From contig CM075775.1 of assembly GCA_037974665.1 (NCBI GenBank), forward strand, positions 37,474,152-37,538,151: DNA of 64,000 nt, in the 5' to 3' direction. Both the position numbers and the translations under genes were made by a program. The notes beneath the pieces were generated by a model. The model worked only from the letters and a program-made list of their open reading frames with translations. It did not search any database and was not told the DNA's origin. Below, piece by piece: positions 1-44,521 of this stretch; within the stretch, counting starts at the first letter, position 1; each line of letters starts with the position of its first letter. The DNA comes from Ehretia macrophylla. Lineage: Eukaryota > Streptophyta > Magnoliopsida > Boraginales > Ehretiaceae.

Positions 1-3000
1 ATTTTTCCGTCTCTAATCGTACGTCGTGAGCCGCAAAAAGGACGAGAACCTAATCCATCACATTTCTGTTACCGAATCCCATGCCACCTTGGGCATGACA
101 ACTTTGCTTCACGTAGAGGTTGGGCCCGCAAACTGAGGGCATAGGACTTAGGACCAGGTCTCCGTCGCTTCGGTTCCCATAACTTTTGATCCGTAAGGAG
201 TTACGCGGCGCACAACATAATGTTGGAAAGCTCTCCGAGAGCTCTACGAGGGGGGTAGCAAGCCTGCATGGCTGCGCCTATTTTCAGAGCCCAAAATCAA
301 ACGTTTTCATCAGTTTCTGGACAGTTTTCTTCTTTTGCGTTGTTTTTCTGTCCCGAATCGTACGTCGTGAGCCGCGAAAAGGACGACAACCTAGTCCATC
401 ACATTTCTATTACCGAATCCCACACCACCTTGGGTAAGAAAACTTCGCTTCACGTAGAGGCTGGGCCCGCAAACCGAGGGCGTGGGACTTAGGACTAGGT
501 CTCCGTCGCTCCGGTGCCCATAACTTTTGATCCGTAAGGAGTTACAAGGCGCACAGCATACAGTTGGAAAGCTCTCCTAAAGGTCTACGATGGGGGCAGC
601 AAGCCTACTTGGCTGCACCTATTTTTTGAGCACAAAATCGAACGTTTTCATCAGTTTCGGTACTCATTTCTTCTTTTGCGCTGTTTTTTCGTCCCGGATC
701 GTACGTCGTGAGCCGCGAAAAGGACGATAACCAAATCCATCACATTTCTATTACCGAATCCCACGCCACCTTGGGCAAGACAACTTCGCTTCACGTAGAG
801 GCTGGGCCCACAAACCGAGGGCGTGGGGCTTAGGACCAGGTCTCCGTCGATTCGGTGCCATAACTTTTGATCCATAAGGAGTTACACGACGCACAACATA
901 CCGTTGGAAAGCTCTCTGAGAGCTCTACGATGGGGACAGCAAGCCTGCTCGGCTGCACCTGATTTTGGGTCCTAAAATCAAACGTTTTCATCAAATTCTG
1001 GACACTTTTCTTCTTTTGCGCTGTTTTTTCGTCCCGGATTGTACGTCGTGAGCCGTGAAAAGGACGACAACCCAATCCATCACATTTCTATTACCGAATC
1101 CCACGCCACCTTGGGCAAGACAACTTCGCTTCATGTAGAGGCTGGGCCCGCAAACTGAGGGCGTGGGACTTAGGACCAAATCTCCGTCGATCCGGTGCCC
1201 ATAACTTTTGATCCATAAGGAGTTACACGGCACACAACATACCGTTGGAAAGCTCTCTGAGAGCTCTACGATGGGGACAGAAAGCCTGCTCGGTTGCGCC
1301 TGATTTTGGAGCCCAAAATCGAATGTTTTCATCAGATTCGGGAGACTTTTCTTCTTTTGCGCTATTTTCCGTCCCGGATCGTACGTCGTGAGCCGCGAAA
1401 AGGACAACAACCTAATCCATCACATTTTTATTACCGAATCCCACGTCACCTTGGGCAAGACAACTTTACTTCACGTAGAGGCTGGGCCCGCAAACCGTGG
1501 GCAAAGGGCTTAAGACGAGGTATCCGTCGCTCCGGTGCCCATAACTTTTGATCCGTATGGAGTTACGCGGCGCACAGCATACCGTTGGAAAGCTCTCCGA
1601 GAGCTCTACGACGGGCGCAGCAAGCTTGCATAGCTGCGCCTAATTTTGGATCCCAAAATCGAATGTTTTTATTAGTTTCTGGACACTTTTCTTCTTTTGC
1701 GCTGTTTTTCCGTCCCGGATCGTACATCGTGAGTCGCGAAAAGGGTGACAACCTAATCCATCACATTTCTATTACCGAATCCCACAGCACCTTGGGCAAG
1801 ACAACTTCGATTCACGTAGTGGCTGGGCCCGCAAACCATGGGCGTGGGGCTTAGGACCAAGTCTCCGTCGCTTTGGTGCCCTTAACTTTTGATATGTAAG
1901 GAGTTACGCGTCGCACAGCAAACCGTTGGAAAGCTCTCCAAGAACTTGACGACGGGGGCAGCAAGCTTGCTTGGCTGCGCCTGTTTTCAGAGCCCAAAAT
2001 TGAACATTTTTATCAGTTTTGGGACACATTTCTTTTTTTGTGTTATTTTTTCGTCCGGGATCGTACGTTGTGAGCCGCGAAAAGGACGACAACCTAATCC
2101 ATCACATTTCTATTATCGAATCCCACGCCACTTTGGGCAAGACAACTTCGCTTCACTTAGAGGCTCGACCCGCAAACCGAGGGCGTGGGGCTTAGGACCA
2201 GGTCTTCGTCGCTCTGGTGCCTATAACTTTTGATCTGTAAGGAGATACGCCGCGCACAGCAAACTGTTGGAAAGCTCTTCGAGAGCTCTACGAAGGAGGC
2301 GAAAAGCCTGCTTGCCTGCGCCTGTTTTCGGAGCCCAAAATCGAACATTTTCATCAGTTTCGGGACACTTTTCTTTTTTTGCGTTGTTTTTTCATCCCGG
2401 ATCGTACGTCGTGAGCTGCGAAAATGACGACAACCTAATCCATCACATTTCTATTATCGAATCCCACGCCACTTTGGGCAAGAAAACTTCGCATCACGTA
2501 GAGGCTCGGCCCGCAAACCGAGGGCGTGGGACTTAGGACCAGGTCTCTGTCGCTCCGGTACCCATAACTTTTGATCCGTAAAGAGTTACGCGGAGCACAG
2601 CATACCGTTGGAAAGCTCTCTGAAAGCTCTGCGATAGGGGGTACAATCCTACTTGGCTGCGCCTGTTTTCGAAGCCCAAAATAAAACATTTTGTTCAGTT
2701 TCGGGATACTTTTCTTCTTTTGCAATATTTTTCCGTCCCGGATCATACGTAGTGAGCCGCAAAAAGGAAGAGAGCATAATCCATCACATTTATATTACCG
2801 AATCCAACGCCACCTTAGGCATGACAACTTCGCTTCACGTAGAGGTTGGGCTCGCAAACCGAGGGCGTGGGGCTTAGGACCAGGTCTCCGTCGCTCCGGT
2901 GCCCATAACTTTTGATCCGTAAGGAGTTACGCGGTGCACAGCATAACGATGGAAAGTTATCCGAGAGCTCTACGATGGGGGCAGCAAGCCTGCCCAGCAG

Positions 3001-5940
3001 CACCTGTTATCGGAGCCCAAAATCAAACATTTTTATCAGTTTCTGGACAGTTTTCTTCTTTTGTGCGGTTTTTCCGTCCCGAATCGTACGTCGTGAGCCG
3101 CGAAAAGGATAACAACCTAATCCATCACATTTCTATTACCGAATCCCACGCCACCTTGGGTAAGACAACTTCACTTCACATAGAGGCTGGGCCCGCAAAC
3201 CGAGGACGTGGGGCTTAAGACAAGGTCTCCGTCGATCCGGTGCCCATAACTTTTGGTCCATAAGGAGTTACACGGCGCACAACATACCGTTGGAAAGCTC
3301 TCTGAGAGCTCTACAATGGGGACAACAAGCCTGCTCGGCTGCGCCTGATTTTGGGGCCCAAAATTGAACGTTTTCATCAGATTCTAGAGACTTTTCTTCT
3401 TTTGCTCTGTTTTTCTGTCACGGATCGTACGTCGTGTGCTGCGAAAAACACGACAACCTAATCCATCACATTTCTATTACCGAATCCCACGCCACCTTGG
3501 GCAAGACAACTTTACTTCCCGTAGAGGCTGGGCCCGCAAACCGTGGCCGAGGGGCTTAAGACGAGGTATCCGTCGCTCCGGTGCCCATAACTTTTGATTC
3601 GTATGGAGTTACGCGACGCACAGCCTACCGTTGGAAAGCTCTCCGAGAGCTCTACGATGGGGGCAACAAGCTTGCTTAGCTGCACCTGATTTTGGAGCCC
3701 AAAATCGAATGTTTTTATTAGTTTCTTGATACTTTTCTTCTTTTGCGCTGTTTTTCCTTCACGGATCGTACGACATGAGCCGTGAAAAGGGCGACAACCT
3801 AATCCATCACATTTATTTTACCGAATCCCATGGCACCTTAGGCAAGACAACTTCGATTCACGTAGTGGCTAGGCCCGCAAACCATGGGCGTGGGGCTTAG
3901 GACCAGGTCTCCGTAGCTCCGGTGCCCATAACTTTTGATCCGTAATGAGTTACGCGTCGCACAGCAAACCGTTGGAAAGATCTCCGAGAACTCGACGACG
4001 GGGGCAGCAAGCTTGCTTGGCTGCGCCTATTTTCAGAGCCCAAAATCAAACATTTTCATCAATTTTGGGGCACTTTTCTTTTTTTGTGTTGTTTTTCCGT
4101 CCGGGATCGTATGTCGTGAGTCGCAAAAAGGACGACAACCTAATCTATCATATTTATATTATCGAATCCTATGCCACTTTGGCCAAGACAACTTAGCTTC
4201 ATGTAGAGGCTTGGCCCGCAAACCGAGGGTGTGGGGCTTAGGTCCAGGTCTCCGTTGCTCCGGTGCCCATAACTTTTGATTCGTAAGGAGATACGCGGCG
4301 TACAGCAAACCATTGGAAAGCTCTCCGAGAGCTCTACGAAGGCGAAAAAAAGCCTGCTTGGCTGCGCCTGTTTTTGGAGCCCAAAATCGAATGATTTCAT
4401 TAGTTTTGGGACACTTTTCTTATTTTGCGTTGTTTTTCTGTCCCGGATCGTACGTCGTGAGCCGTAAAAATGACGACAATCTAATCCATCACATTTCTAT
4501 TATCGAATCCGACGCCACTTTGGGCAAGACAACTTCGCTCCACGTAGAGGCTCGTCCCGCAAACCGAGGGCGTGGGGCTTAGGACCAAGTCTCCGTCGAT
4601 CCGGTACCCATAACTTTTGATCCGTAAGGAGTTACGCGGAACACAGTATACCATTGGAAAGCTCTTCGAGAGCTCTACGATGGGGGATGCAAGCCTGCTT
4701 GGCTGCACCTATTTTCGGAGCCCAAAATAAAACATTTTGTTCAGTTTTGGGACACTTTTCTTCTTTTGCAATATTTTTCTGTCTCGAATCGTACGTAGTG
4801 AGCCGCAAAAAGGAAGAGAACATAATCCATCACATTTCTATTACCGAATCCCACGCCACCTTGGGCATGACAACTTCGCTTCACGTAGAGGTTGGGCCCG
4901 CAAACCGAGGGTGTAGGGCTTAGGACCAGGTCTCCGTCGCTCTGGTGCCCATAACTTTTGATCCGTAAGGAGATACGCGGTGCACAGCAAACCGTTGGAA
5001 AGCTCCCTGAGAGCTCTATGAAGGAGATAAAAAGCCTGCTTGGCTGTGCCTATTTTCGGAGCACAAAATTGAACGTTTTCATTAGTTTCGGGATACTTTT
5101 CTTATTTTGCGTTGTTTTTCCGTCCCGGATTGTATGTCGTGAGCCGCGAAAATGACAGCAACCTAATCCATCACATTTCTATTATCGAATCCCACGCTAC
5201 ATTGGGCAAGACAACTTCACTTCACGTAGAGGCTCGGCCCGCAAACCGAGGGCGTAGGGCTTAAGACCAGGTCTTCGTCGCTCTGGTACCCATAACTTTT
5301 GATCCGTAAGGAGTTATGCGGAGCACAGCATACTGTTGGAAAGCTCTCCAAGAGCTCTACGATGGGGGGTGCAAGCCTGCTTGGCTGCGCCTATTTTCGG
5401 AGCGCAAAATAAAACATTTTGTTCTATTTCGGGACACTTTTCTTCTTTTGCAATATTTTTTCATCCCGGATCGTACGTAGTGAGCCGCAAAAAGGAAGAG
5501 AACATAATCCATCACATTTCTATTACTGAATCCCACGCCACCTTGGGCATGACAACTTCGCTTCACGTAGAGGTTGGGCCCGCAAACCGAGGGCGTGGGG
5601 CTTAGGACCAGGTCTCCGTCGCTCCGGGGCCAATAACTTTTGATCCGTAAGGAGATATGCGGCGCACAGCAAACCCTTGGAAAGCTCTCCGAGATCTCTA
5701 CGAAGGAGGAAGAAAGCCTGCTTGACTGCGCCTGTTTTCGGAGCCCAAAATCGAACGTTTTCATCAGTTTCGGGACACTTTTCATCTTTTGCGTTGTTTT
5801 TCCGTCCCGGATCGTACGTCGTGAGCCGCGAAAAAGACAACAACCTAATCCATCACATTTCTATTATCGAATCCCGCGCCACTTTGGGCAACACAAATTC
5901 ACTTCACGTAGAGGCTCGGCCCGCAAACCGAGGGCGTGGG
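1..5940 (-). repeat. 341 bp satellite, array A (inverted)
   Basis: About 17.4 head-to-tail monomers of a ~341 bp satellite; the left edge runs off the window. Strand is given relative to arrays B and D, whose plus strand reads CAAAAGTTATGGGCACCGG; here that motif is found reverse-complemented (CCATAACTTTTGATCCGTAA). Other landmarks recurring once per monomer are ACGTACGATC, a TCTATTACCGAATCCCA block and a GAGCTCTC/GAGAGCT dyad. Monomers differ from each other at many CpG/TpG/CpA positions and by small indels. One frame is open through most monomers, but its only start is TTG and the period is not a multiple of three, so I do not regard it as coding. The satellite is not one I can name. Confidence 0.95.
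1..5940 (-). repeat. Higher-order repeats in array A (8-mer, 6-mer, then 2-mers)
   Basis: Monomers can be sorted into types by private variants. Reading left to right the order is F G H I I J K E, then F G I J K E, then F E F E. Type F carries a GGAAGAG or GGACGAG variant and GGGCATGACAAC; type E carries CGAAAATGAC and GGAGATACGC. Equivalent positions in the main unit are spaced 2,046 bp (six monomers): 1254/3300, 1889/3935, 2230/4276, 2653/4699. After about 4.28 kb an E-F dimer of 682 bp repeats (4276, 4958, 5640). This ordering was done by eye from shared variants; a self-alignment would refine the limits. Confidence 0.75.
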
Positions 5941-6232
5941 CCTTTGACTATTTCTATGAAAAATGCTCAGAGCTGGCAAAACTAGTCACCTACCAATTTC
6001 CATGCATTTTAAACATCATCTACTAGGCCAAATTCACTTTGTTCTAACAAGTCAGAAATCTGCCATTTTCGCAATTTCACCTATCTTCAAATTCCAGCTA
6101 AATATCTTGTCATGCATGATTACAAAAGCTCATGTACACACAAATACCACAAGTACAGAGGTAAAAATAGACATATGAAGGCATGCATGTGGTTTTTGAA
6201 AGCTTTTAAAAAAGGATTAACCCTCACCTTAG
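5941..6232 (-). mobile_element. Chromovirus LTR fragment at the A/B satellite border
   Basis: A ~290 bp piece of the same LTR family found at 21941-25485 and 25697-29384, in the same (minus) orientation. Shared landmarks in order are ACTAGTCACCTACCAATTT, a CATCATCTACTAGGCC block, AATATCTTGTCATGCATG, GGCATGCATGTGG and ending TAACCCTCACCTTAG. It starts immediately at the end of satellite array A. It is an incomplete fossil with no coding part. Confidence 0.85.
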
Positions 6233-6703
6233 TCTGACGTGCTATTTTCAAATCGATTGATAGATAGTCTGATCTGTTCTGATGGATTGAAAAAGATAGA
6301 GAAGAAATCTATCAAGAATAAGGGAAAATCTCATATTTCTATCTATTGCTGAGACAACTATCTATTCTTGATCCATCAGAAAAAAATCAATATGTATCTG
6401 ATGGAGTCTACATCGTACGTAGAACGGCCAAGCGCTTTTTAGGCCAGCTCAGTTCTCTTATCCATCCCATCGGTCCAATGCACTAGGCTCATCTCATGGA
6501 GGGAAAAGCCAAAATGTAGTTGTCTTGTTCACCGCCTCGACGCATTCCCTTCTCTCCCCGTTATCGTCCCACATAAAAAGAAAGAACGTAGAGCCCCAAC
6601 TCGACCTGTAGGTCCGCTAACGTAAAGCAAAGAGTTGAGCCTGAACTAGTGAACCAAAGTCACTTTTGGAACCGTACATCCTACAACTAACATGTGTCTA
6701 GTG
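6233..6703. other. Unassigned ~0.47 kb insert at the satellite orientation switch
   Basis: This stretch matches neither the satellite nor the LTR. Its left part (about 6240-6420) contains interrupted inverted repeats: TTCTGATGGAT and CAAGAATA are mirrored by TATTCTTGATCCATCAGAA. Its right part (about 6420-6700) is more GC-rich, with blocks such as CGACGCATTCCCTTCTCTCC and TAGAGCCCCAACTCGACC. The texture resembles non-coding plant mitochondrial DNA, but I could not match it to a specific organelle gene. No usable reading frame is present. It separates satellite monomers facing opposite directions. Confidence 0.5.
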
Positions 6704-8339
6704 TGGGCTCAGCCTCTACGTGAAGCGAAGTTGTCTTGCCCAAGGTGCCATAGGATTCGATAATAGAAATGTGATGGATTAGGTTGTCGTCCTTTTCTAG
6801 GCTCACCACGTACGATCCGGGACGGAAAAACAACATAAAAGAAGAAAAGTATCCCAAAATTGATGAAAACGTTCAATTTTGGGCTTCAAAAATAGGCGTA
6901 GCATAGCAGGTATGCTGCCCCCGTCATAGAGCACACGGAGAGCTTTTCAACGGTATGTTGTGCACCGCTTAACTCCTTACGGATCAAAAGTTATGGGCAT
7001 CGGAGCGACGAAAACCTGGTCCCAAGCCCCACGCCCTCAGTTTGCGGGCCCAGACTCTACGTGAAGTGAAGTTGTCTTGCCCAAGGTGTCGTAGGATTCG
7101 ATAATAGAAATGTGATGGATTAGGTTGTTGTCCTTTTAGCGGCTCACGACGTACGATCCGGGACGAAAAAATAGCACAAAAGAAGAAAAATGTCACAAAA
7201 CTGATGAAAACGTTCGATTTTGGGCCCTGAAAACAGGTGCAGCCAAGCATGCTTGTAGCCCCCGTCATGGGGCTCTCGGAGAGCTTTCAAACAGTATACT
7301 GTGCACCGTGTAACTTCTTACGGATCAAAAGTTATAGGCACAGGAGCGACAGAGACCTGGTCCCAAGTCCCACGCCCTTGGTTTGCAGGCCCAGCCTCTA
7401 CGTGAAGCAAAGTTGTCTTGCCTAAGGTGCCATGGCATTCGATAATACTAATGTGATTGATTTGGTTGTCGTCCTTTTCGCGGCTCATAACGTACGATTC
7501 GGGATGAAAAAATAGCGCAAAAGAAGAAAAGTATCCCGAAACTGATGGAAACATTCGATTTTAGGCTCCAAAAATAGGCGAAGCATAGTAGACTTGCTGC
7601 CACCGTCGTAGAGCTCTCGGAGAGCTTTCCAACGGTATGTTGTGCACCACGTAACTCCTTACAGATCAAAATTTAAGGGCACCAGAGCGACGGAGACTTG
7701 GTCCCCAATCCCACGCCCTTGGTTTGCGAGCCCAGCCTCTACGTGAAGCGAAGTTTTCTTGCCCAAGGTGCCATGGGATTCAAAAATAGAAAAAGGTTGG
7801 ATTAGGTTGTCGTCCTTTTCCCGGCTCACGACGTACGATCCAGGATAAAAAAACAGTGCAAAAGTAGAAAAGTATCCTAAAACTTATGAAAACAATCGGA
7901 TTTGGGCTCCAAAAATAGGCGCAGCCGAGCAGGATTGCTGCCCCCATCGTAGAGCGCTTGGAGAGCTTTCCAACGATATTATGTGCAGCGCGTAACTCCT
8001 TACGGATCAAAAGTTATTGGAACCGGAGCGACAGATACTTGGTCACAAGCCCAACGCCCTCGATTTGCGGGCCCAGCCTCGACATGAAGTGAAGTTGTCA
8101 TGCCCAAGGTGTCGTGAGATTCGGTGATAGAAATGTGATTGATTAGGTTGTCGTCCTTTTTGCGGCTGGCGACGTACGATCCGTGACAGAAAAATAGCGC
8201 AAAAGAAGAAAAGTGTCCCAAAACTGATGAAAATGTTTGATTTTGGTCACCAAAAATAGGCACTGCTAAGCAGGCTTGCTGCGTCCGACGTAGAGCTCTC
8301 AGAGAGCTTTCCAACGATATGCTGTGCGCCACGTAACTC

Positions 8340-11300
8340 CTTACGGATCAAAAGTTATAGGCAAATGAGCGACGGAGACCTGGTCCCGAGCCCCACGTCC
8401 TCGGTTTGCGAGCCCAACTTCTACGTGAAGCGAAGTTGTCTTGCCCAATGTGCTATGGGATTCGATAATAGAAATGTGATGGATTAGGTTGTCGTCCTTT
8501 TCGAGGCTCACGACGTACGATCCGGGAAGGAAAAACAGCGCAAAAGAAGAAAAGTGTCCTAAAACTGATAAAAACATTCGATTTTGGGCTCCGAAAATAG
8601 GCACAGCCAAGCAGGATTGCTGCCCCCGTCGTAGAGCTCTCGGAGAGCTTCCCAACGGTATGCTGTGCACCGCATAACTCCTTACGGATCAAAAGTTATG
8701 GCACCAGAGCGACGGAGACATGGTCCTAAGCCCGACGCCCTCGGTTTGCGGGCCCAGCCTCTACGTGAAGCGAAGTTGTCTTCCCCAAGGTGCCATGGGA
8801 TTCGATAATACAAATGTGATGGATTAGGTTGACATCCTTTTCGCGGCTCACGACGTACCATCCGGTACAGAAAAATAACGCAAAAAAAAAGAAAAGTGTC
8901 CCGAAACTAATGAAAATGTTCAATTTTGGGATCCAAAAATAGGAGCAACCGAGCAGGCTTCCTACCCCCGTCGTAGAGCTCTCGGAGAGCTTTCCAACGG
9001 TATGCTGTGCGCCGCTTAACTCCTTACAGATCAAAAGTTATGGGCACCAGAGCGACGGAGACCTAGTCCCAAGGCCCATCCCCTCGGTTTGCGAGCCCCG
9101 CCTCTATGTGAATCGAAGCTGTCTTGCCCAAGGGGCTATGGGATTCGATAATAGAAATGTGATGGATTAGGTTGTCGTCCTTTTTACGGTTCACAACGTA
9201 CGATCCGGGACGGAAAGACGGCGCAAAATAAGAAAAGTATACCAAAATTGATGGAAAAACGTTTGATTTTGGGCTCTGAAAATAGGAGCAGGCGAGCAAG
9301 CTTGCTACCCTCATCATAGAGCTCTCGGAGAGCTTTCCAACGGTATGTTGTGTGTCGCGTAACTCCTTACAGATCCAAAGTTATGCGCACCGGAGCGACG
9401 GAGACCTGGTCCCAAGCACCACGCCCTCGGTTTGCTGGCCTAGCCTATACCTGAAGCGAAGTTGTCTTGCCCAAGGTGCCGTGGGATTCGATAATAGAAA
9501 TGTGATGGATTAGGTTGCCGTCCTTTTCTAAGCTCACGACGTACGATCCGGGATGAAAAAACAGCGCAAAAGAAGAAAAGTGTCCCACAACTAATGAAAA
9601 CGTTCAATTTTGGGTTCCAAAAATTGGATCAAGCAAGCAGGCTTGCTACCCTCGTCGTAAAGCTCTCGGAGAGCTTTCTAACAGTATGTTGTGCGCCGCG
9701 TAACTCCTTACGGATCAAAAGTTATGGGCACCGGAGCGACAGAGACATTGTCCCATGCCCGACGCCCTCGGTTTACGGGCCGACCCTCTACGTGAAGCAA
9801 AGTTGTCTTGCCCAGGGTGCCATGGGATTCGATAATAGAAATGTGATGGATTATGTTATCGTTCTTTTCGTAGCTCATGACGTATGATCCTGGATTGAAA
9901 AACAACACAAAAGAAGAAAAGTGTCCCATAACAAATGAAAACGTTCAATCTTGGTCTTCGAAATCAGGCGCAGTCGAGCAGGCTTTCTGCCCCCGTCGTA
10001 GAGCTCTCGGAGAGTTTTCCAACGATATACTGTGCGCTGCGTAACTCCTTACGGATCAAAAGTTATAGGTACCGGAGCAACGGAGACCTGGTCTCAAGCC
10101 CCACGCCCTCGGTTTGTGGGCCCCGCCTCTACGTGAGGCGAAGTTGTCTTACCCAAGGTGCTGTGGGATTCGATAATAGAAATTTGATGGATTAGGTTGT
10201 CGTCCTTTTCGAGGTTCACAACGTACGATCTGGGACAGAAAAACAACGCAAAATAAGAAAAGTATTCTAAAACTGATGAAAACGTTCGATTATTGGCTCC
10301 AAAAACAGGCGCAGAAGAGCAGCCTTGCTGCCCCCATCGTAGAGCTCTCGGAGAGCTTTCCAACGGTATGTTGTGCGCCACGTAAATCCTTACAGATCAA
10401 AAGTTATGGGCATCGGAGCGACGGAGACCTGGTCCCTAGCACCACGCCCTCGGTTTTCGAGCCAAGTCTCTTCGTGAAGCGATGTTGTCTTGCCCAAGGT
10501 GCTTTGGGATTCGATAATAGAAATGCGATGGATTAGGCTGTCGTCCTTTTCTAGGCTCACGACGTACGATACAGGAAGAAAAAATAGCGCAAAAAAAGAA
10601 AAGTGTCCCAAAATTAATGAAAACATTCGATTTTGGGCTCTGAAAATAGGCGCGGCCGACCAGGATTGCTGCCCTCGTCGTAGAGGTCTCGGAGAGCTTC
10701 CCAACAGTATGTTGTGCACCGCGTAACTCCTTAGGGATCAAAAGTTATGGGCACCGGAGCGACGAAGACATGGTCCTAAGCCCGATGCCTTCGGTTTGCG
10801 GGCCCAGCCTCTATGTTAAGCGAAGTTGTCTTGCCCAAGGTACTGTCGGATTCGATAATACAAATGTGATGGATTAGGTTGTCGTCCTTTTCGCGGCTCA
10901 CGACGTACGATCCGGTACAGAAAAACAACCCAAAAGAAGAAAAGTGTCCCGAAACTAATAAAAACATTTGATTTTGGGATCCAAAATTAGGTGCAGCTGA
11001 CAAGGCTTCCCGCCCACGTTGTAGAGCTCTCGGAGAGCTTTCAAACGGTATGTTGTGCGCTACATAACTCCTTACAGATCAAAAGTTATGGGCACCAGAG
11101 CGACAGAGACCTGGTCCCAAGCCCCACCCCCTCGGTTTGCGAGCCCCGCCTCTACGTGAATCGAAGTTGACTTGCCCAAGGTGTCGTGGGATTTGATAAT
11201 AGAAATGTGATGGATTAGGTTGTCGTCCTTTTGCGGTTCACAACGTACGATCCGAGATGAAAAAACAACGCAAAATAAGAAAAGCATCTCGAAACTGATG

Positions 11301-12440: not shown

Positions 12441-12589
12441 ATCAAAAGTTATGGGCACCGGAGTGATGGAGATCTGGTCCCAAGCACCACGCCCTCGGTT
12501 TTTGGTCCCAGCCTCTACGTGAAACGAAGTTGTCTAGCCCAAGGTGCTGTGGGATTCGATAATAGAAATGTGATGGATTAGGTTGTCGT

Positions 12590-21929: not shown

Positions 21930-21940
21930 TTCTGTTTGGG

Positions 21941-25485: not shown

Positions 25486-25696
25486 ACGGAGACATGGTCC
25501 CAAGCCCGACGCCATCGGTTTTTGGGCCCAGCCTCTACGTGAAGCGAAGTTGTCTTCCCCAAGGTGCTATGGGATTCGATAATAGAAATGTGATGGATTA
25601 TGTTGTCGTCCTTTTCTAGGCTCACACGTACGATCCGGGATGGAAAAACAGCGCAAAAGATGAAAAGTATCCCGAAACTGATGAAAACGTTCGATT
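25486..25696 (+). repeat. Satellite island C between two LTRs
   Basis: About 210 bp (0.6 monomer) of the 341 bp satellite, from ACGGAGACATGGTCCC through GATAATAGAAATGTGATGG and ACGTACGATCC to AAAACGTTCGATTA. It has the same orientation as arrays B and D. It shows that both LTRs sit within what was once one continuous array. Confidence 0.9.
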
Positions 25697-32300: not shown

Positions 32301-35300
32301 TCTAACGGTATACTGTGTGCCACGTAACTCTTTACAGATCAAAAGTTCTGGACACCGGAGCGACAGAGACCTGGTCCCAAGCCCCATGCCCTCGGTTTGC
32401 GGGCCCAGACTCTACTTGAAGCGAAGTTGTTTTGCCCAAGGTGTCATGGGATTTGATAATAGAAATGTGATGGATTAGGTTGTCGTCCTATTCGCGGCTC
32501 ACGACGTACGATCCGAGACGAAAAAACAATGCAAAAGTAGAAAAGTGTCCCAAAACTAATGAACACATTCGATTTTGGGCTCTGAAAATAGGCACAGCAA
32601 AGCAGGATTGCTGCCCCCATCGTAGAGATCTCGGAGAGCTTTCCAACAGTATTATGTGCACCGCGTAACTCCTTACGGATCAAAAGTTATGGGCACCGGA
32701 GCTACAGGTACCTGGTCACAAGCCCCATGCCCTCGGTTTGCGGGCCCAGCCTCTACGTGAAGTGAAGTTGCCCAAGGTGTCATGGAATTCGTTAATAGAA
32801 ATTTGATTGATTAGGTTGTCGTCCATTTCGCGGCTGACGACGTACGATCCGGGAAGGAAAAATAGCCCAAAAAAAGAAAAGTGTCTCAAAACTAATGAAA
32901 ACGTTCAATTTTGGGCTCCAAAAACAAGCGCAGCCAAGCAGGCTGGTTGCCCCTATCGTAGAGCTCTCGGCGAGCTTTCCAACGGTATGTTGTGCGCCAC
33001 ATAACTCCTTACGGATCAAAAGTTATGGGCAAAGGAGCGACGGAGACCTGGTCCCAAGCCCCACGCCCTCGGTTTGCCGGCCTAGCCTCTACGTGAAGCG
33101 AAGTTGTCTTGCCAAAGATGCCATGGGATTCAATAATAGAAATGTGATGGATTAGGTTCTCTTCCTTTTCTAGGCTCATGACGTACGATCCGGGAAGGAA
33201 AAACAATGCAAAAGAATAAAAGTGTCCCAAAACAGAAGAAAACATTTGATTTTGGGCTCCAAAAATAGGCGCAGCCGAGCAGGCTTGCTGCCCCCGTCGT
33301 AGAACTCTCAGATAACTTTCCAATCGTATACTGTGCACCGCGTAACTCCTTACGGATCAAAACTTATGGGCACCGGAGCGACAGAGACATGGTCTCAAGC
33401 CCGACGCCCTCTGTTTGCGGGCCCAAACTTTACATGAAGCGAAGTTGTCTTGCCCAAGGTGCTATGGGATTCGATAATATAAATGTGATGGATTAGGTTG
33501 TCGTCCTTTTCGCGGCTCAAGACGTACGATTCGGGATGGAAAAACAACACAAAAGAAGAAAAGAGGTCCCGAAGCTGATGAAAATGTTCAATTTTGGGAT
33601 CTAAAAATAGGAACAACCGAGCAGGCTTGCTGCCGCCGTCGTAGAGCTCTCAGAGAGCTTTCCAACGGTATTTTGTGTGCTGCATAACTCCTTATGGATC
33701 AAAAGTTACGGGTACCGGAGCTACATATATCTGGTTACAAGCCCCACGCCCTCGGTTTGCGGGCCCAACCTCTACGTGCAATGAAGTTGTCATGCACAAG
33801 GTGTCATGGGATTCGGTAATTGAAATGTGACTGATTATGTTGTCGTCCTTTTTGCGGCTAACGACGTACGATCCGTGACGGAAAAATAGCGCAAAAGAAG
33901 AAATATGTCCCAAAACTGATGAAAATGTTCTATTTTGGGCTCTGAAAACAGGTGCAGCTGAGCAAATTTGCTGCCCCCGTCGTAGAGCTCTCGGCGAGCT
34001 TTCCAACGGTATGCTGTTCGCTGCGTAACTCCTTTCGGATTAAAAGTTATGGGCAAAAAAGCGACGGAGACCTGGTCCCAAGCCCCACGCCCTCGATTTG
34101 CCGGCCCAGCCTCTACGTGAAGCGAAGTTGACTTGCCTAAGGTGCCATGGGATTCGATAATAGAAATGTGATTGATTAGGCTCTCATCCTTTTCTAGGCT
34201 CACGACGTATGATTTGGGAAGGAAAAACAGAGCAAAAGAAGAAAAGTGTCCCAAAATTGATGAAAACGTTCGATTTTGGGCTCCGAAAATAGGTGAAGCC
34301 AAGTAGGCTTGCTGCCCCCGTCGTAGATCTCTCGGAGAGCTTTCCAACGGTATGCTGTGTTCCGCGTAACTCCTTACGGATCAAAAGTTACGGACATCGG
34401 AGCGACGGAGACCTGGTCCCAAGCCCCACGCCCTCGGTTTACGGGCCCAGCCTCCACGTGAAGCAAAGTTGTCTTGCTCATGGTGCCGTGGGATTCAATA
34501 ATAGAAATGTGATGGATTTTGTTGTCGTCCTTTTCGTGGCTCACAACGTATGATCCGGGATGGAAAAATAGCGCAAAAGAAGAAAAGTATCTCGAAACTG
34601 ATGAAAATGTTCGATTTTGGGCACCAAAAATAGGCGCAGACGAGATGCCTTGTGGCCCCCGTCGTAGAGCTCTCGGAGGGCTTTCCAATGGTATGCTGTG
34701 CACCGCGAAACTCCTTACGGATCAAAAGTTATAGGCAAATGAGCGACGGAGACCTGGTCCCAAGCCCCAAGCCCTCGGTTTGCCGACCCAGCCTCTACGT
34801 GAAGCAAAGTTGTCTTGCCCAAGGTGCCGTGAGATTCTATAATAGAAATGTGTTGGATTAGGTACTCGTCATTTTCTAGGCTCACGACGTACGATCCGGG
34901 AAGGAAAAACAGGGCAAAAGAAGAAAAGTGTCCAAAAACTTATGAAAATGTTCGATTTTGGGCTCCGAAAATAGGCGCAGCTGAGCAGGCTTGCTACCCT
35001 CATCGTAGAGCTCTCAGAGAGCTTTCCAACAGTATGTTGTGCGCTGCATAACTCCTTACGGATCAAAAGTTATGGGCACCAGAGCGACGGAGACATGGTC
35101 CCAAGCTCGACGCCCTTGGTTTGCCGGACCGGCCTCTACGTGAAGCAAAGTTTTCTTGCCCAAGGTGACGTGAGATTCGATAATAGAAATGTGATGGATT
35201 AGGTTGCCGTCCTCTTCTAGGCTCACGACGTACGATCAGGGAAGGAGAAACAGCGCAAAAGAAGAAATGTGTCCCAAAACTTATGAAAATGTTCTATTTT

Positions 35301-38300
35301 GGTCTCTGAAAATAGGTTTCAAATGAGAAGGCTTGTTACCCCCGTCGTAGAGCTCTCGGAGAGCTTTCCAACGGTATGCCGTGCGCCGCATAACTCCTTA
35401 CGGATCAAAAGTTATGGGCACCGGAGTAACGGAGACATGGTCCAAAGCCTGACGCCCTCGGTTTTCGAGCCCAGCCTCTACGTGAAGCGATGTTGTCTTG
35501 CCCAAGGTACCGTGGGATTCGATAATAGAAATGTGATTGATTAGGTTGTCGTCCTTTTGGCGGCTCACGACTTACGATCCGGGACGAAAAAATAACACAA
35601 AAGAAGAAAAGTATCCCGAAACTGATGAAAACGTTCGATTTTGGGATCCGAAAATAGGTGCAACCGTGCAAGCTTGCTGCCCCTGTCGTAGAGCTCTCAG
35701 AGTGCTTTCCAACGGTCTGTTGTGCGCAGCGTAACTCCTTATGGATCAAAAGTTATGGGCACCGGAGTGACGGAGACCTGGTCCTAAGCCCCACGCCCTC
35801 GATTTGCGGGCCCAGCCTCTACGTGAAGCAAAATTGTCTTGCCTAAGGTATCGTGGGATTCGATAATAGAAATGTGATGGATTTGGTTGTCGTCCTTTTC
35901 GCGGCTCACAACGTACGATCCAGGACGAAAAAATAGCGCAAAAGAAGAAAAGTATCCCGAAACTGATGAAAATGTTAGATTTTGGGCTCCAAAAACGGGT
36001 GCAGCAAATCTGGATTGGTGCCCCCGTCGTAGAGATCTCAGAGAGCTTTCCAACGGTGTGTTGTGCGCTGCGTAACTCTTTACAAATCAAATGTTATGGG
36101 CACCGGAGCGACAGAGACTAGGTCCCAAGCCCCATGCCCTCGGTTTGCGAGCTCAGCCTCTACGTGAAGCGAAGTTGTCTTGCCCAAGGTACAGTGGGAT
36201 TCGATTATAGAAATGTGATGGATTAAGTTTATGTCCTTTTCGCGGCTCACGACGTACTATCCGGGACAGAAGAACAGCGCAAAAGAAGAAAAGTGTCACG
36301 AAACTAATGAAAATGTTCGATTTTGGGCTCCGAAAACATGCGCAGCCGAGCAAGGTTGTTTCTACCATCGTAGAGCTCTCGGAGAGCTTTCCAACGGTAT
36401 GCTGTGGGCCGCGTAAATCCTTACGGATCAAAAGTTATGGGCAAATGAGGGATAGAGACCTAGTCCCAAGCCCCACGCCCTTGGTTTGCGGTCCCAGCCT
36501 CTACGTGAAGCGAAGTTGTCTTGCCCAAGGTGCCGTGGGATTCGATAATAGAAATGTGATGGATTAGGTTGTCGTCCTTTTCGCGGCTCACGACATACAA
36601 TACGGGAAGGAAAAATAACGCAAAAGAAGAAAAGTGTCCCGAAACTGATGAAAATGTTCACTTTTGGGCTCCAAAAATAGGCGTAGCCGAGCAGGCTTGC
36701 TGCCCTCGTTGTAGAGCTCTCAGAGAGCTTTCCAATGGTATGTTGTGTGCCTCGTAACTCCTCACGGATCAAAGGTTATAGGCAAAGAAGTGACGGAGAC
36801 CTGTTCCCAAGCACCACGTCCTCGGTTTGCGGTCCCAGCCTCTACGTGAAGTGAAGTAGTCTTGCCCTAGGTGCCATGGGATTTGGTAATAGAAATGTGA
36901 TGGATTAGGTTTTCTTCCTTTTCTAGGCTCACGACGTACGATCCGAGAAGGAAAAATAGCGCAAAAGAAGAAAAGTGTCCCAAAATTGATAAAAACGTTC
37001 GATTTTTGGCTCTAAAAACAGGCACAGCCGAGCGGGCTTGCTGCCCCCGTCGTATAGCTCTCGGAGAGCTTTCCAACGGTATGCTGTGCGCCGCGTAACT
37101 TCTTACAAATCAAAAGTTATGGGCACCGGAGCAACGGAGACATAGTCCCAAGCCCGACACCCTTAGTTTGAGAGCCCAGCCTCTACATGAAGCGAAGTTG
37201 TCTTGCCCAAGGTACCTTGTGATTCGATAATAAAAATGTGATGGATTAGGTTGTCGTCCTTTTCACGGCTCACGACATACGATCTGGGACGAAAAAACAG
37301 CGCAAAAGAAGAAAAGTATCCCGAAACTGATGAAAACCCTCGATTTTGGGCTTCAAAAATAGGCGCAGCTGAGCAGGCTTGCTGCCCCCGTGGTAGAGCT
37401 CTCAGAGAGCTGTCCAACGGTATACTGTGCGCCATGTAACTCCTTACGAATCAAAAGTTATGGGCACCAGAGCGACAGATACCTGGTCACAAGCCCCACG
37501 CCCTTGGTTTGCGGGCCCAGTCTCTACGTGTAGTGAAGTTGTCATGCCCAAGGTGTCGTGGGATTCGGTAATAGAAATGTGATGGATTTGGTTGTCGTCC
37601 TTTTCGCGGCTGACGACGTACGATCTGGGAAGAAAAAATAACGCAAAAGAAGAAAAGTGTCCCGAAACTATTGAAAACGTTTGATTTTGTGCTCTGAAAA
37701 TAGGCGCAGCTGAGCAGACTGGCTTCCCCCGTCGTAGAGCTCTCGGCGAGCTTTCCAACGGTATGCTGTGACCCATGTAACTCCTTACGGATCAAAAGTT
37801 ATGGGCACCGGAGCAACGAAGACCTGATCCCAAACCCCACACCCTCGGTTTGCGGGCCCAGCCTCTACGTGAAGTGAAGTTGTCTTGCCCAAGGTACCTT
37901 GGGATTCGATAATAAAAATGTGATGGATTAGGTTGTCGTCCTTTTCACGGCTCACGACGTACGATCTGGGATGAAAAAATAGCGCAAAAGAAGAAAAGTA
38001 TCCCAAAACTGATAAAACCCTCGATTTTGGGCTTCAAAAATAGGCGCAGCTGAGCAGGCTTGCTGCCCCAGTCGTAGAGCTCTCAGAGAGCTGTCCAACG
38101 GTATGCTGTGCGCCACGTAACTCCTTACGGATCAAAAGTTCTGGACACCGGAGCAACGGAGACCTGGTCCCAAGCCCTACGCCCTCGGTTTGCGGGCCCA
38201 GCCTCTACGTGAAGCGAAGTTGTTTTGCCCAAGGTATCGTGGGATTCGATAATAGAAATGTGATGGATTAGGTTGTCGTCCTATTCGTGGTTCACGACGT

Positions 38301-41300
38301 ACGATCCAGGACGGAAAAATAACGCAAAAGCAGAAAAGTGTCCCGAAACTAATGAACATATTCGAATTTGTGCTCCGAAAATAGGCACAGCAAAGCAGGA
38401 TTGCTGCCCCCGTCGTAGAGATCTCGGAGAGATTTCCAACGGTATTCTGTGCACCGCGTAACTCCTTACAGATCAAAAGTTATGGTCACCGGAGCTACAG
38501 ATACCTGGTCACAAGCCCCACGCCCTCGGTTTGCGGGCCCAGCCTCTACGTGAAGTGAAGTTGTCATGCCCAAGGTGTCATGGGATTCGGTAATAGAAAT
38601 GTGATTGATTAGGTTGTCGTCCTTTTCGCGGCTGACGACGTACGATCCGGGAAGGAAAAATAGCCCAAAAGAAGAAAAGTGTCCCAAATCTGAGAAAACG
38701 TTCGATTTTGGGCTCCGAAAATAGGTGCAGCCAAGCAAGCTGGCTGACCCTGTCGTAGAGCTCTCGGCGAGCTTTCCAACGGTATGTTGTGCGCCGCGTA
38801 ACTCCTTACGGATCAAAAGTTATGGGAAAAGGGGCGACGGAGACCTAGTCCCAAGCCCCACGCCCTCGGTTTGCCGGCCCAGCCTCTACGTGAAGCGAAG
38901 TTGTCTTGCCAAATGTGCCGTGGGATTCAATAATAGAAATGTGATGGATTAGGTTCTCGTCCTTTTCTAGGCTCACGACGTACGACCCGGGAAAGAAAAA
39001 CAGCGCAAAAGAAGAAAAGTGTCCCAAAACTGAAGAAAACATTCAATTTTGGGCTCCAAAAATAGGCGCAACCGAGCAGGGTTGCTGTCCCCGTCGTAGA
39101 ACTCTCGGATAACTTTCCAACAGTATACTGTGCGTCGCGTAACTCCTTACGGATCAAAAGTTATGGGCACCGGAGCGACGGAGACATGGTCCCAAGCCCG
39201 ACGCCCTCTGTTTGCGGGCCAAACCTCTACATGAAGCGAAGTTGTCTTGCCCAAGGTGCCGTGGGATTCGATAATATAAATGTGATGGATTAGGTTGTCG
39301 TCCTTTTCGCGGCTCAAGACGTATGATCCGGGATGGAAAAACAACACAAAAGAAGAAAAGAATTCTCGAAGCTTATGAAAACATTCGATTTTGGGATCCA
39401 AAAATAGGCGCAGCCGAGCAGGCTTGCTGCCGCCATCGTAGAGCTCTTGGAAAGCTTTCCAACGGCATTCTGTGCGCCACGTAACTCGTTACAGATCAAA
39501 AGTTATGGGTACCAAAGCTACAGATACCTGGCCACAAGCCCCACATCCTCGGTTTACGGGCCCAGCCTCTACGTGAAGTGAAGTTGTCATGCCCAAGGTA
39601 TCGTGGGATTCGGTTATTGAAATGTGATTGATTAAGTTGTCATCCTTTTCGATGCTGACGACGTACGATCCGGGACGAAAAAATAGCGCAAAAGAAGAAA
39701 TGTGTCCTAAAACTGATGAAAACGTTCGATTTTGGGCTCCGAAAACAGGCGCAGCCGAGCAGGCTTGCTGCCCGACATAGAGCTCTCGACGAGCTTTCCA
39801 ACGGTATGTTGTGTGCTACGTAACTCCTTTCGGATCAAAAGTTATGGGCAAAAGAGCGACGGAGACCTGGTCCTAAGCCCCACGCCCTAGATTTGCCGGC
39901 CCAGCCTCAATGTGAAGCGAAGTTGACTTGCCCAAGGTGCGGTGAGATTCGATAATAGAAATGTGATGGATTAGGTTCTCATCCTTTTCTAGGCTCACGA
40001 CGTATGATTTGGGAAGGAAAAACAGAGCAAAAGAAGAAAAGTGTCCTAAAACTGATGAAAATGTTCTATTTTGGGCTCCGCAAATAGGTGCAGCCGAGCA
40101 GGCTTGCTGACCCTGTCGTAGAGCTCTCGGAGAGCTTTCCAACGGTATGTTGTGCTCCGCGTAACTCCTTACGGATCAAAAGTTACGGGCACCGGAGCGA
40201 TGGAGACCTGGTCCCAAGCCCCACGCCCTCGGTTTGCGGGCCCAGCCTCTACGTGAAGCAAAGTTGTCTTGCCCATGGTGCCGTGGGATTCAATAATAGA
40301 AATGTGATGGATTTGGTTGTCGTCCTTTTCGTGGCTCACAACGTATGATCCGGGATGGAAAAATAGCACAAAAGAAGAAAAGTATCCTGAAACTGATGAA
40401 AACGTTCGATTTTGGGCACCAAAAATAGGCTTGGTAGAGATGGTTTATGGCCCCCGTCGTAGAGCTCTCGGAGGGCTTTCCAACGGCATTCTATCCGCCG
40501 TGAAACTCCTTACGGATCAAAAGTTATGGGCAAATGAGCAACGGAGACCTGGTCCCAAGCCCCACGCCCTCGGTTTGCCAGCCCAACCTCTACGTGAAGC
40601 AAAGTTGTCTTCCCCAAGGCGCCATGAGATTCTATAATAGAAATGTGTTGGATTAGGTAGTCATTGTTTTCTAGGCTCACGACGTACGATCCGGGAAGGA
40701 AAAACAGTGCAAAAGAAGAAAAGTGTCCAAAAAATGATGAAAATGTTCGATTTTGGGCTCTAAAAATAGGCATTGCTGAGCAGGCTTGCTACCCCCATCG
40801 TAGAGCTCTCGGAGAGCTTTCCAACAGTATGTTGTGCGCTGTGTAACTCCTTACGGATCAAAAGTTATGGGCACCGGAGCGACGGAGACATGGTCCCAAG
40901 CTCGACGCCCTTGGTTTGTCGGCCCAGCCTCTACGTGAAGCGAAGTTGCCTTGCCCAAGGTGCCGTGGGATTCGATAATAGAAATGTGATGGATTAGGTT
41001 GTCATCCTTTTCTAGGCTCACGACGTACGATCAGGGAAGGAAAAACAGTGTAAAAGAAGAAAAGTGTCCCAAAACTGATGAAAATGTTCTATTTTGGGCT
41101 CTGAAAACAGGCGCAGATGAGCAGGCTTGCTACCCCCGTCGTAGAGCTCTCAGAGAGCTTTCCAACGGTACGGTGCGCCGCGTAACTCCTTACGGATCAA
41201 AAGTTATGGGCACCGGAGCGACAGAGACATGGTCCCAAGCCTGACGTCCTCGGTTTGCGAGCCCAGCCTCTACATGAAGTGAAGTTGTCTTGCCCAAGGT

Positions 41301-44300
41301 GCCGTGGGATTCGATAATAGAAATGTGATTGATTAGGTTGTCGTCCTTTTCGCAGCTCACGACTTACAATCCGGGACAGAAAAATAACACAAAAGAAGAA
41401 AAGTATCTTGAAACTGATGAAAACGTTCGATTTTGGGATCTGAAAATAGGCGCAACCGAGAAAACTTGCTGCCCCGTCGTAGAGCTCTCGAAGTGCTTTC
41501 CAACGGTATGCTGTGCGCCGCGTAACTCCTTATGGATCAAAAGTTATGGGCACCGGAGTGACGGAGACCTGGTCCCAAGCCCTACGCCCTCGATTTGCGG
41601 GCCCAGCCTCTACGTGAAGTGAAATTGTCTTGCCCAAGGTATCGTGGGATTCGATAATAGAAATGTGATGGATTTGGTTGTCATCCTTTTTGCGGTTCAC
41701 AACGTATGATCCATGACGAAAAATAGCATAAAAGAAGAAAAGTATCCCGAAACTGATGAAAACGTTCGATTTTGGGCTCCAAAAATGGGCACAGCAAATC
41801 TGGATTGGTGCCCCCGTCGTAGAGATCTCAGAGAGCTTTCCAACGGTATGTTGTGCACCGCGTAACTCTTTACGGATCAAATGTTATGGGCACCGGAGCG
41901 ACGGAGACTAGGTCCCAAGCCCCACGCCCTCGGTTTGTGGGCTCAACCTCTACGTGAAGCAATGTTGTCTTGCCCAAGGTGCCATGGGATTCGATTATAG
42001 AAATGTGATGGATTAAGTTGTTGTCCTTTTCGCGGCTCACGACGAACGATCCGGGACAAAAAAATAGCGCAAAAGAAGAAAAGTGTCACAAAACTAATGA
42101 AAACGTTCGATTTTGGGCTCCGAAAACATACGTAGCTGAGCAAGCTTGTTTCCACCATCGTAGAGCTCTCGGAGAGATTTCCAACGGTATGCTGTGCACC
42201 TCGTAACTCCTCACGGATCAAAGGTTATGGGCAAAGGAGTGACGGAGATCTGGTCCCAAGCCCCACGCCCTCAGTTTGCAGGCCCAGCCTCTGCGTGAAG
42301 TGAAGTTGTCTTGCCCTAGGTGCCGTGGGATTCGATAATAGAAATGTGATGGATTAGGTTTTCGTCCTTTTCTAGGACCATGACGTATGATCCGGGAAGG
42401 AAAAACAGCGCAAAAGAAAAAAAGTGTCCCAAAATTGATGAAAATGTTCGATTTTCGGCTCTGAAAATAGGCACAGCCGAGCAGACTTGCTGCCCCTGTC
42501 ATATAGCTCTCGGAGAGCTTTCCAACGGTATGCTGTGCGCTGCGTAACTCCTTACGGATCAAAAGTTATGGGCACCGGAGCGACGGAGACATAGCCCCAA
42601 GCCCGTCGCCCTTAGTTTGCGAGCCCAGCCTCTACGTGAAGCGAAGTTGTCTTGCCCAATGAGCCATGGGATTCGATAATAGAAATGTAATGGATTAGGT
42701 TGTCGTCCTTTTCGAGGCTCATGACGTACGATTCGGGACGGAAAAATAGCGCAAAAGTAGAAAAGTATCCCAAAACTGATGAAAACATTCGATTATGGGC
42801 TCCAAAAATAGGCGCAGCCGAGTAGGATTGATGCCCCCGTCATAGAGCTCTCGAAGAGCTTTCCAACGACATTTTGTGCGCCACGTAACTCTTTACGGAT
42901 CAAAAGTTATAGGCACCGGAGCGACAAATACCTGATCACAAGCCCTACAACCTTTGTTTGCGGGCCCAGTCTCTACGTGTAGTGAAGTTGTCATGCCCAA
43001 GGTGTCGTGGGATTCGATAATAGAAATGTGATGGATTTGGTTGTCGTCCTTTTCACGGCTCACAACGTACGATCCGGGATGAAAAAATAGCGCAAAAGAA
43101 TAAAAGTGTCCTGAAACTAATGAAAACATTCGATTTTGGTCTCCAAAAATAGGCGCAACAGAGCAAGCTTGCTGCCCCCGTCGTAGAGCTCTCGGAGAGC
43201 TTCCCAACGGTATGCTGTGCGCCACGTAACTCCTTACGGATCAAAAGTTATGGACACCGGAGCGACGGAGACCTAGTCCCAAGCCCCACGCCTTAAGTTT
43301 GCGGGCTCAGCCTCTACATGAAGCGAAGTTGTCTTGCCCAAGGTGCCGTGGGTTTCGATAATAGAAATGTGATGGATTAGGTTGTCGTCCTTTTCGCAGT
43401 TCACGACATACGATCCGGGACGAAAAAACAGCGCAAAAGAAGAAAAGTGTCCTGAAACTGATGAAAACGTTCGATTTTGGGCTCCGAAAGTAGGCGCAGC
43501 CGAGCAGGCTTTCTGCCCCCATCGTAGAGCTCTCGGAGACCTTTCCAGCAGTATGCTGTGCGCCGCGTAAATCCTTACGGATCAAAAGTTATGGCTAAAG
43601 GAGCGACGGAGACCTGGTCCCAAGCCCCACGCCCTCGGTTTGCGGGCTCAGCCTCTACGTGAAGCGAAGTTGTCTTGCCCAAGGAGCTGTGGGATTCGAT
43701 AACAAAAATGTGATGGATTAGGTTGTCGTCCTTTTCGTGGCTCACGACGTACGATACGGGACGAAAAAATAGCACAAAAGTAGAAAAGTGTCCTGAAACT
43801 GATGAAAACGTTCGATTTTGGGCTCTGAAAAAAGGAGCAGGTGAGCAGGCTTGCTGCCCCGGTCGTAGAGATCTCGGAGAGCTTTCCAACGGTATACTGT
43901 GCGCTGCGTAACTCTTTACGGATCAAAAGTTATGGGCAAATGAGCGACGGAGACCTGGTCCTAAGCCCCACGGCCTTGGTTTGCGGGCCCAGCCTCGACG
44001 TGAAGCGAAGTTGTCTTGCCCTAGGTGCCGTGGGATTCGATAATAGAAATGTGATAGATTATGTTGTCGTCGTTTTCTAGGCTCACAACGTATGATTCGG
44101 GAAGAAAGAATAGTGCAAAAGAAGAAAAGTGTCCCAAAACTGATGAAAACGTTCGATTATAGGCTCCAAAAATAGGCGCAGCCGAGCAGGATTGTTGTCC
44201 CCGTCGTAGAGCTCTCGGAGAGCTTTCCAACGGTATTATGTGCACCGCGTAACTTTTACATATCAAAAGTTATGGGCACCGGAGCGACAGATACCTGGTC

Positions 44301-44521
44301 ACAAGCCCTACGCTGTTGGTCTGCGGGCCCAGCCTCTACGTGAAGTAAAGTTGTCATGCCCAAGGTGTTGTGGGATTCGGTAATAGAAATGTGATTGATT
44401 AAGTTGTCGTCCTTTTCGCGGCTGATGACGTACGATCCGGGACGGAAAAACAGCGCGAAAGAAGAAAAGTTCCCGAAACTGATGAAAACGTTCGATTTTG
44501 GGTTCCGAAAAGAGACACAGC
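29385..44521 (+). repeat. 341 bp satellite, array D
   Basis: About 44 monomers, the longest array here, in the same orientation as B. It resumes at CAGCCTCTACGTGAAGCG directly after the LTR end and stops at GAGACACAGC directly before the LTR at 44522. Several monomers share a variant with ACAGATACCTGGTCACAAG in place of GGAGACCTGGTCCCAAG; others share TTTTCTAGGCTCACGACG. Some monomers have short internal deletions (about 29765, 31790 and 32770). Confidence 0.95.
31700..42930 (+). repeat. 17/16-monomer higher-order repeat in array D (~5.8 kb)
   Basis: Copy 1 spans about 31.70-37.47 kb and copy 2 about 37.47-42.93 kb. Corresponding private variants lie 5,790-5,798 bp apart over most of the length: CCTATTCG with GAACA.ATTCGA (32488/38281), AACAACACAAAAGAAG (33543/39336), GAACATGCG/AACATACG with TTGTTTC (36340/42125), GGTGCCCCCGTCG (36017/41808). 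After about 36.43 kb the offset falls to 5,452 bp, so the monomer at 36430-36770 has no partner in copy 2. Copy 1 thus has 17 monomers and copy 2 has 16. Confidence 0.8.

Follow-up and report, generated by a model that had tools for sequence, protein, structure and literature searches.

A stretch of 64,000 bp in the Ehretia macrophylla genome (C12:37,474,152-37,538,151, referred to here as the window; the genome comprises 1.58 Gb in 20 contigs) holds long arrays of a 341-bp tandem repeat with the long terminal repeats (LTRs) of a retrotransposon at their borders. The locus raises the question of why repeat and retrotransposon lie side by side and whether the repeat is centromeric, as the preliminary description of this DNA had suggested.

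The description of a large 341-bp satellite of about 100 monomers and about 35 kb was borne out. BLAST with a consensus made from 20 window monomers located 35,468 bp of the repeat (∼104 monomers), and Tandem Repeats Finder (TRF), run on the window, recovered the 341-bp unit in three arrays (Table 1). The repeat had also been assigned to positions 1 to 44521. Satellite is indeed found across that span, but it is not continuous, being interrupted at 5945-6701 and 20879-29384, and the first array is inverted. Both interruptions are mostly retrotransposon derived, except for ∼470 bp at 6230-6701. Consecutive detected monomer starts are exactly 341 bp apart in 69 of 100 spacings (15 of 17 in array 1, 25 of 40 in array 2, and 29 of 43 in array 3). 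Pairwise identity among 20 of the ∼104 window monomers averages 84% (range, 79 to 94%), their consensus is 341 bp long, and a 28-mer from the unit was counted 32 times in the window and 0 times in 100 shuffles. Identities are flat (0.82 to 0.88) over lags of 1 to 12 monomers, i.e., equally high for neighbours and for monomers up to 12 apart, and no higher-order repeat is therefore apparent in the window arrays.

Table 1. Satellite and retrotransposon features of the window (satellite coordinates from BLAST)
Feature	Position	Strand	Description	Source
Satellite array 1	2-5944	-	17.4 copies; inverted relative to arrays 2 and 3	TRF (2-5944), BLAST
LTR-like fragment	5939-6229	-	Abuts array 1 directly; strand as in 27961-28250 and opposite to 45543-45833	
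Satellite array 2	6702-20878	+	41 monomer starts detected	TRF (6705-20878, overlapping rows), BLAST
gag region, Ty3/gypsy	20879-21680	-	Cut off at ∼20878, at satellite start	
Primer-binding-site-like motif	21916-21929	-	TGGTATCAGAGC	Read from sequence
LTR a, ∼3.5 kb	21941-25485	-	TGTGAGGCCCGA...GGGGCGTGACA; 5′ start at 25485 abuts satellite, target phase 254-259	3′ end read from sequence
Isolated satellite fragment, 211 bp	25486-25696	+	Between LTR a and LTR b	BLAST
LTR b, 3′ end truncated	25697-29384	-	5′ start at 29384 abuts array 3, target phase 297-302	
Satellite array 3	29385-44521	+	44 monomer starts detected	TRF (29385-44511), BLAST
LTR c, truncated	44522-46199	+	5′ start at 44522 abuts satellite, target phase 144-149	

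Abundance was estimated with the 28-mer TAACTCCTTACGGATCAAAAGTTATGGG, allowing up to 3 mismatches, a probe that matches 92% of the window monomers and ∼100% of those in other loci. It gave 247,370 + 246,130 = 493,500 matches genome-wide, while its reversed control gave 0. The count corresponds to ∼493,500 monomers and 168 Mb, ∼10.7% of the 1.58-Gb genome, placing the family at around half a million copies. An estimate from exact 28-mer matches (11,072) was discarded because that word is ∼10-fold more frequent in the window than next to LTRs elsewhere. With its long head-to-tail arrays and its high-copy unit, the repeat is a satellite DNA. The preliminary description did not recognise the repeat as a described family; in the literature, the 341 bp mentioned in PMC4053949 belongs to the American pika.

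Distribution along chromosomes was read from an exact 88-mer of the satellite, which occurs at 612 places; positions are those of the first 100 listed, covering C1 to part of C4. Among these matches, the satellite lies at 0.93 to 2.7, 14.0, 34.7 to 41.6, 53.5, and 122.7 to 125.4 Mb of C1 (126.5 Mb), at 25, 34.5 to 38.3, and 74 to 77 Mb of C2 (88.7 Mb), at 24.5, 36.4 to 36.6, and 70.7 to 73.0 Mb of C3 (73.15 Mb), and at 30 to 32 Mb of C4. Satellite matches listed near the start of C1 also include 0.48 to 0.56 and 3.06 to 3.16 Mb. Interior blocks (C1, 32 to 42 Mb; C2, 34 to 38 Mb; C4, 30 to 32 Mb; C12, 35 to 40 Mb) are thus accompanied by blocks 0.5 to 4 Mb from the chromosome ends on C1 and C3, with several blocks per chromosome. 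A centromeric satellite is expected in one region per chromosome, a pattern that did not hold from C1 to part of C4, and the occurrence of blocks both near the ends and in the interior excludes a centromere-only satellite. The centromeric role first proposed is not supported in the form stated. Its wider form, in which the satellite is a centromeric or pericentromeric dinucleosomal repeat, draws on the interior blocks, a subset of which could be pericentromeric, and we regard it as unlikely: besides the terminal and multiple blocks, there is no half-unit repeat inside the 341 bp. The unit equals two nucleosome lengths numerically, as had been pointed out, but the two halves of the consensus match each other with a score of 11.0, not above the shuffled value (200 shuffles; mean, 13.1), which rules out a two-half (2 × 170 bp) origin. 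A unit of dinucleosome length is, alone, no centromere marker.

The sequences that border and interrupt the arrays belong to a Ty3/gypsy retrotransposon. An open reading frame at 21067-21456 matches Retrotrans_gag (E value, 9.5e-19) and Ty3_capsid, and the adjacent TGGTATCAGAGC motif is presumably a primer-binding-site-like motif of the initiator-Met tRNA type. All three LTR starts in the window adjoin satellite, each at a different phase of the monomer. Array 3 is bordered on each side by an LTR 5′ start, both LTRs running outward. A CACTA or foldback transposon, considered on account of 19-bp repeats in inverted orientation near 29 and 44.6 kb, was rejected, as these repeats are the two LTR starts that face one another from either side of the array. 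LTR c ends within ∼10 bp of an NRT1/PTR-type gene copy.

Assignment to Ty3/gypsy relies on a composite drawn from several loci: TG..CA LTRs, 5-bp target site duplication, primer-binding site, polypurine tract, gag (from the window), reverse transcriptase (from the related locus L041; RVT_1, E value of 6.6e-30), and integrase parts (from the related locus L018; SH3_Tf2-1, E value of 1.9e-27, and rve, E value of 8e-5, below the rve cut-off). The integrase piece of L018, which comes from a related element and not from the window, also has a Chromo domain match below the cut-off (E value, 0.089), and a search of solved structures with the integrase tail returned nothing relevant. In the type II chromodomains of plants, some of the usual aromatic residues are absent (PMC3059260). 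The element probably belongs to the Tekay (Del) clade of chromoviruses, given its long LTRs (∼3.4 to 3.9 kb in this family, with ends TGTGA/TGACA) and a reading of the integrase tail by eye. The beet Tekay elements Bongo1 to Bongo3 have LTRs of 2.6 to 3.0 kb (bar one with a deletion), total lengths of 8.4 to 11.6 kb, 5-bp duplications, and a Met-tRNA primer site (PMC3605345). The centromeric CRM clade was rejected because neither LTR length nor LTR ends fit; CRM LTRs measure 299 to 1,225 bp and end in TGATG/CATCA (PMC3059260).

Association of LTRs with the satellite extends beyond the window. Most LTR starts came from the 40 matches that scored best against one window LTR, 30 of which were used; the sample is not random. 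Together with those of the window the starts number 39; a loose polypurine motif marked 7 of these as 3′ LTRs, and they were set aside. The remaining 32 adjoin satellite in 24 cases, the family's own LTR in 5, and other sequence in 3, compared with a satellite expectation of 10.7% (binomial p ∼2e-17), and when the window and L002 are left out, 20 of 28 adjoin satellite (p ∼5e-14). L026, one of those scored by motif as a 3′ LTR, adjoins satellite, and counting by hand thus gives 25 of 33. L016 also has satellite next to it but lacks a clean LTR terminus. Six LTRs were traced to their far ends. Satellite lies on both sides of five, and the sixth continues into a primer-binding site. Among the five, two have identical 5-bp duplications (GACCA and ACCTT), one has a match at 4 of 5 bases, one has a 17-bp overlap, and one has a truncated 3′ end.

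Co-location would also be expected if the satellite had been born from, or were carried inside, an LTR retrotransposon, for which Retand and the Lathyrus satellites offer precedents (PMC12477314). Contact with every LTR start in the window and the lone 211-bp satellite piece between two LTRs would suit such an origin. Junctions occur, however, at many phases of the monomer, run in either orientation, and are accompanied by 5-bp target duplications, and satellite was absent from all 29 internal gag loci outside the window. The duplications, being in register, largely refute an LTR origin, which we consider very improbable; the element entered the satellite rather than giving rise to it.

Integration was not spread evenly over the monomer. 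Projected onto it, 26 junctions share 12 target positions between them, and both orientations are represented at 6 of these. At shared targets the two orientations are offset by exactly 5 bp, as follows if one 5-bp staggered target is used on either strand. Opposite-orientation coincidences number 15, compared with 0.47 expected and a maximum of 6 in 100,000 simulations with 26 junctions, and same-orientation coincidences number 10 (0.48 expected; maximum of 8 in 100,000 simulations). Palindromy was not raised at the target sites (p = 0.75) and does not account for the positions, and an empty arc in the monomer was not significant (p = 0.14). There is a hint of G or C excess immediately outside the 5-bp target.

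Recurrence at the same positions could instead reflect amplification, by unequal exchange, of composite units of satellite plus LTR rather than repeated targeted integration. Some copying is suggested by the satellite flanks of same-orientation pairs, which are 92 to 95% alike in four pairs (these may be copies of one event) and 89% alike in two more. LTR b of the window likewise has a copy on C2 (L012/L069) in which the 5′ target is identical and the 3′ junction is truncated in the same way (3′ phase by eye), so that both junctions are common to the two loci. In the remaining four same-orientation pairs, by contrast, the flanks are just 78 to 82% alike, and these look like separate events at one site. 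Nor is the use of one 5-bp target in opposite orientations, as in the 15 pairs above, expected from copying, and after one member of each of the four possibly copied pairs was dropped, the remaining 22 junctions still gave 10 opposite-orientation coincidences (0.34 expected; maximum of 5). Amplification is thus an unlikely account of the clustering, and repeated integration at fixed positions is preferred.

The same positions were examined genome-wide by counting, in the whole assembly, a pattern of satellite word, short gap, and LTR start. The stretch around target 216-221, a span of 11 positions, has 183 junctions. Among the 100 listed (C1 to C8), 85 lie at one position, 13 at 213-218, three bases on, and 2 elsewhere. 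In the mirror orientation of this stretch there are 43 junctions: 36 mirror the first position, 6 mirror the second, and 1 lies elsewhere. At the stretch of target 193-198, 23 of 27 junctions share one position, and even the stretch 24-33, picked as cold, has 21 junctions, 11 of which (counted by eye) are at one favoured position. With word frequency in the sampled monomers as the denominator, the rates per 100,000 word-bearing monomers are 78 for 216-221 (70 to 89, depending on the sample used), 14 for 193-198, and 8 for 24-33 (7 to 14). The mirror rate of 81 (43 to 227) rests on 24 word occurrences and supports a hot site, not equal use of the two orientations. Site 216-221 is hot in both orientations.

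At the other end of the element, 135 LTR 3′ junctions lie in the 216-221 stretch, and of the 100 listed, 87 are at the first target, 12 at the second, and 1 elsewhere. Pairing of the listed 5′ and 3′ places gave 22 insertions, 18 of which measure 3.46 to 3.96 kb, as a solo LTR does, and four 7 to 14 kb. Their 5-bp duplications are identical in 20 cases, including one at C3:65.3 Mb, and differ by one base in two. Seven have lengths of 3901 to 3906 bp, which would be compatible with amplification, and there could be copies among these seven; 19 distinct lengths are nevertheless represented, so the 22 insertions are not one copied event.

A further possibility is that integration is random and that survival is limited to satellite heterochromatin. 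Retention in a niche is one of two general causes of uneven retrotransposon distribution (PMC12477314), yet it is not plausible that selection put 85 of the 100 listed junctions on a single base of an 11-position span. Retention bias is thereby refuted as a cause of position and is improbable overall. Enrichment in the satellite, 5-bp duplications in register, few fixed positions on the monomer, and both orientations are all direct observations, and we conclude with considerable confidence that a Ty3/gypsy LTR retrotransposon, probably a Tekay (Del) chromovirus, integrates preferentially and at specific positions into an abundant satellite that is not centromere specific.

How such targeting might operate can be outlined. 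Tethering of integration complexes via the integrase C terminus has been proposed for plant chromoviruses (PMC3059260), and here the chromodomain-like C-terminal part of the integrase may well tether the complex to satellite heterochromatin. Local DNA shape or sequence, nucleosomes in phase with the repeat, or both would then fix the exact position on the monomer; we give each about an even chance, and the two are not separable here. Later deletion and unequal exchange would have produced the solo and truncated LTRs, and some blocks of satellite plus LTR may have been copied between arrays.

A preference of a Ty3/gypsy element for tandem repeats has a reported precedent in rice, where RIRE7 is said to prefer the TrsD tandem repeat of heterochromatin (a 2001 report by Kumekawa et al.). 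By its title, that report resembles the present case in preferential insertion of a Ty3/gypsy element into a heterochromatic tandem repeat, but RIRE7 is a rice centromeric retrotransposon. It is also named CRR1 (PMC6317226). The Galadriel chromovirus Beon1 occupies beet 18S rDNA and, as described in PMC3605345, resembles the present element in being a chromovirus at a conserved tandem-repeat position, in both orientations, with a 5-bp duplication and a Met-tRNA primer site. Its target, however, is one place in the 18S rRNA gene, whereas the target here is a satellite in many blocks with several hot spots per monomer, and its LTRs measure 631 bp compared with ∼3.4 to 3.9 kb. Bongo3 of beet, despite the likeness of Bongo1 to Bongo3 to the present element, is dispersed along chromosome arms by fluorescence in situ hybridization (FISH), and the consulted parts of PMC3605345 report no satellite targeting for Bongo1 to Bongo3. 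Athila of Arabidopsis also invades satellite arrays (Wlodzimierz et al. 2023, as cited in PMC12477314), but it is an LTR retrotransposon outside the chromoviruses and its arrays are centromeric, unlike a satellite found in many blocks, including some near chromosome ends.

At the insertion sites of plant LTR elements, palindromes are in general weakly preferred, and predicted nucleosome occupancy follows a strong pattern (PMC6911290). One survey recorded 1008 of the 1024 possible 5-mers among target duplications, pointing to an apparently random choice (PMC6317226), to which the satellite-targeting family looks like a clear exception. Preference of a Ty3/gypsy element for a tandem repeat (RIRE7) and a chromovirus at one 18S rDNA position (Beon1) are already in print. 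Base-level insertion hot spots in a non-coding satellite appear to be new: the titles and abstract openings listed for open-access papers on retrotransposons in satellites mention none.

Inferences about targeting by plant LTR retrotransposons often draw on chromosome maps of low resolution. In this genome a single target sequence recurs about half a million times; the DNA context is therefore nearly constant, and each insertion can be placed to the base in either orientation. Control of integrase position by sequence and by phased nucleosomes is therefore directly testable against each other, and the insertions offer a way to date satellite blocks. We lean, slightly, toward the view that a plant chromovirus has, in the course of evolution, become nearly site specific in its integration into a non-coding satellite, with most insertions, in both orientations, going to a few 5-bp positions of each 341-bp monomer that are read via phased nucleosomes. 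If so, the satellite of E. macrophylla would be a natural array of half a million copies in which the choice made by an integrase may be read base by base.

The satellite and its LTR retrotransposons seem in places to have been copied together. LTR b (25697-29384), whose 3' end is truncated, and its counterpart on contig C2 (L012/L069, C2:26.32 Mb) share both the 5' target and the truncated 3' junction with the satellite, and for this reason a satellite-plus-LTR block appears to have been copied between the two chromosomes. Elsewhere in the assembly, solo-LTR-sized insertions at C8:1585366, C8:3170949, C8:4985284, and C5:76732657 lie in one common target and all have a spacing of 3901 bp, from which the spacing of three further insertions departs by no more than 5 bp; the C8 and C5 insertions may derive from a single block copied over long distances. 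Duplication is also probable for a nest found at two loci on C13 (L018, 16.40 Mb; L020, 12.94 Mb), where an LTR of the family has inserted into a related element, in its integrase region, since the nested LTR has the same flank at both.

The satellite arrays near the end of contig C1 (C1:477094-557727 and C1:3058370-3158432) look, from the spacing of one monomer word, like dimeric higher-order repeats, in contrast to the arrays of the window: exact matches to this word are often 677 to 678 bp apart, i.e., at every second unit of ∼339 bp.

Beside truncated LTR c, the homology between two tandem transporter gene copies begins ∼10 bp or less from the LTR end, and the first copy may therefore have lost its 5' part at the satellite/LTR border. 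The two AT-rich patches resemble one another in direct as well as inverted orientation, and a further match links the second to its reverse complement. The ∼470-bp stretch preceding array 2 had no BLAST match to the retrieved loci outside the window.

Further features of the window (window positions)
Feature	Position	Description
Stretch of ∼470 bp	6230-6701	LTR fragment on one side, array 2 on the other
NRT1/PTR (POT family) transporter gene	46206-48308	Tandem copy 1 of 2
NRT1/PTR (POT family) transporter gene	51174-53420	Tandem copy 2 of 2
AT-rich repeat patch	54992-55436	31-32-bp repeats
AT-rich repeat patch	58578-59035	31-32-bp repeats

Coding content differs among the LTR elements. In four of them (L011, L015, L025, and L031), the last 1.5 kb ahead of the 3' LTR contains only short open frames (≤54 amino acids); in the L018 element, by contrast, an integrase tail lies there. 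These four possibly represent a non-autonomous subfamily that is mobilized by an autonomous one.
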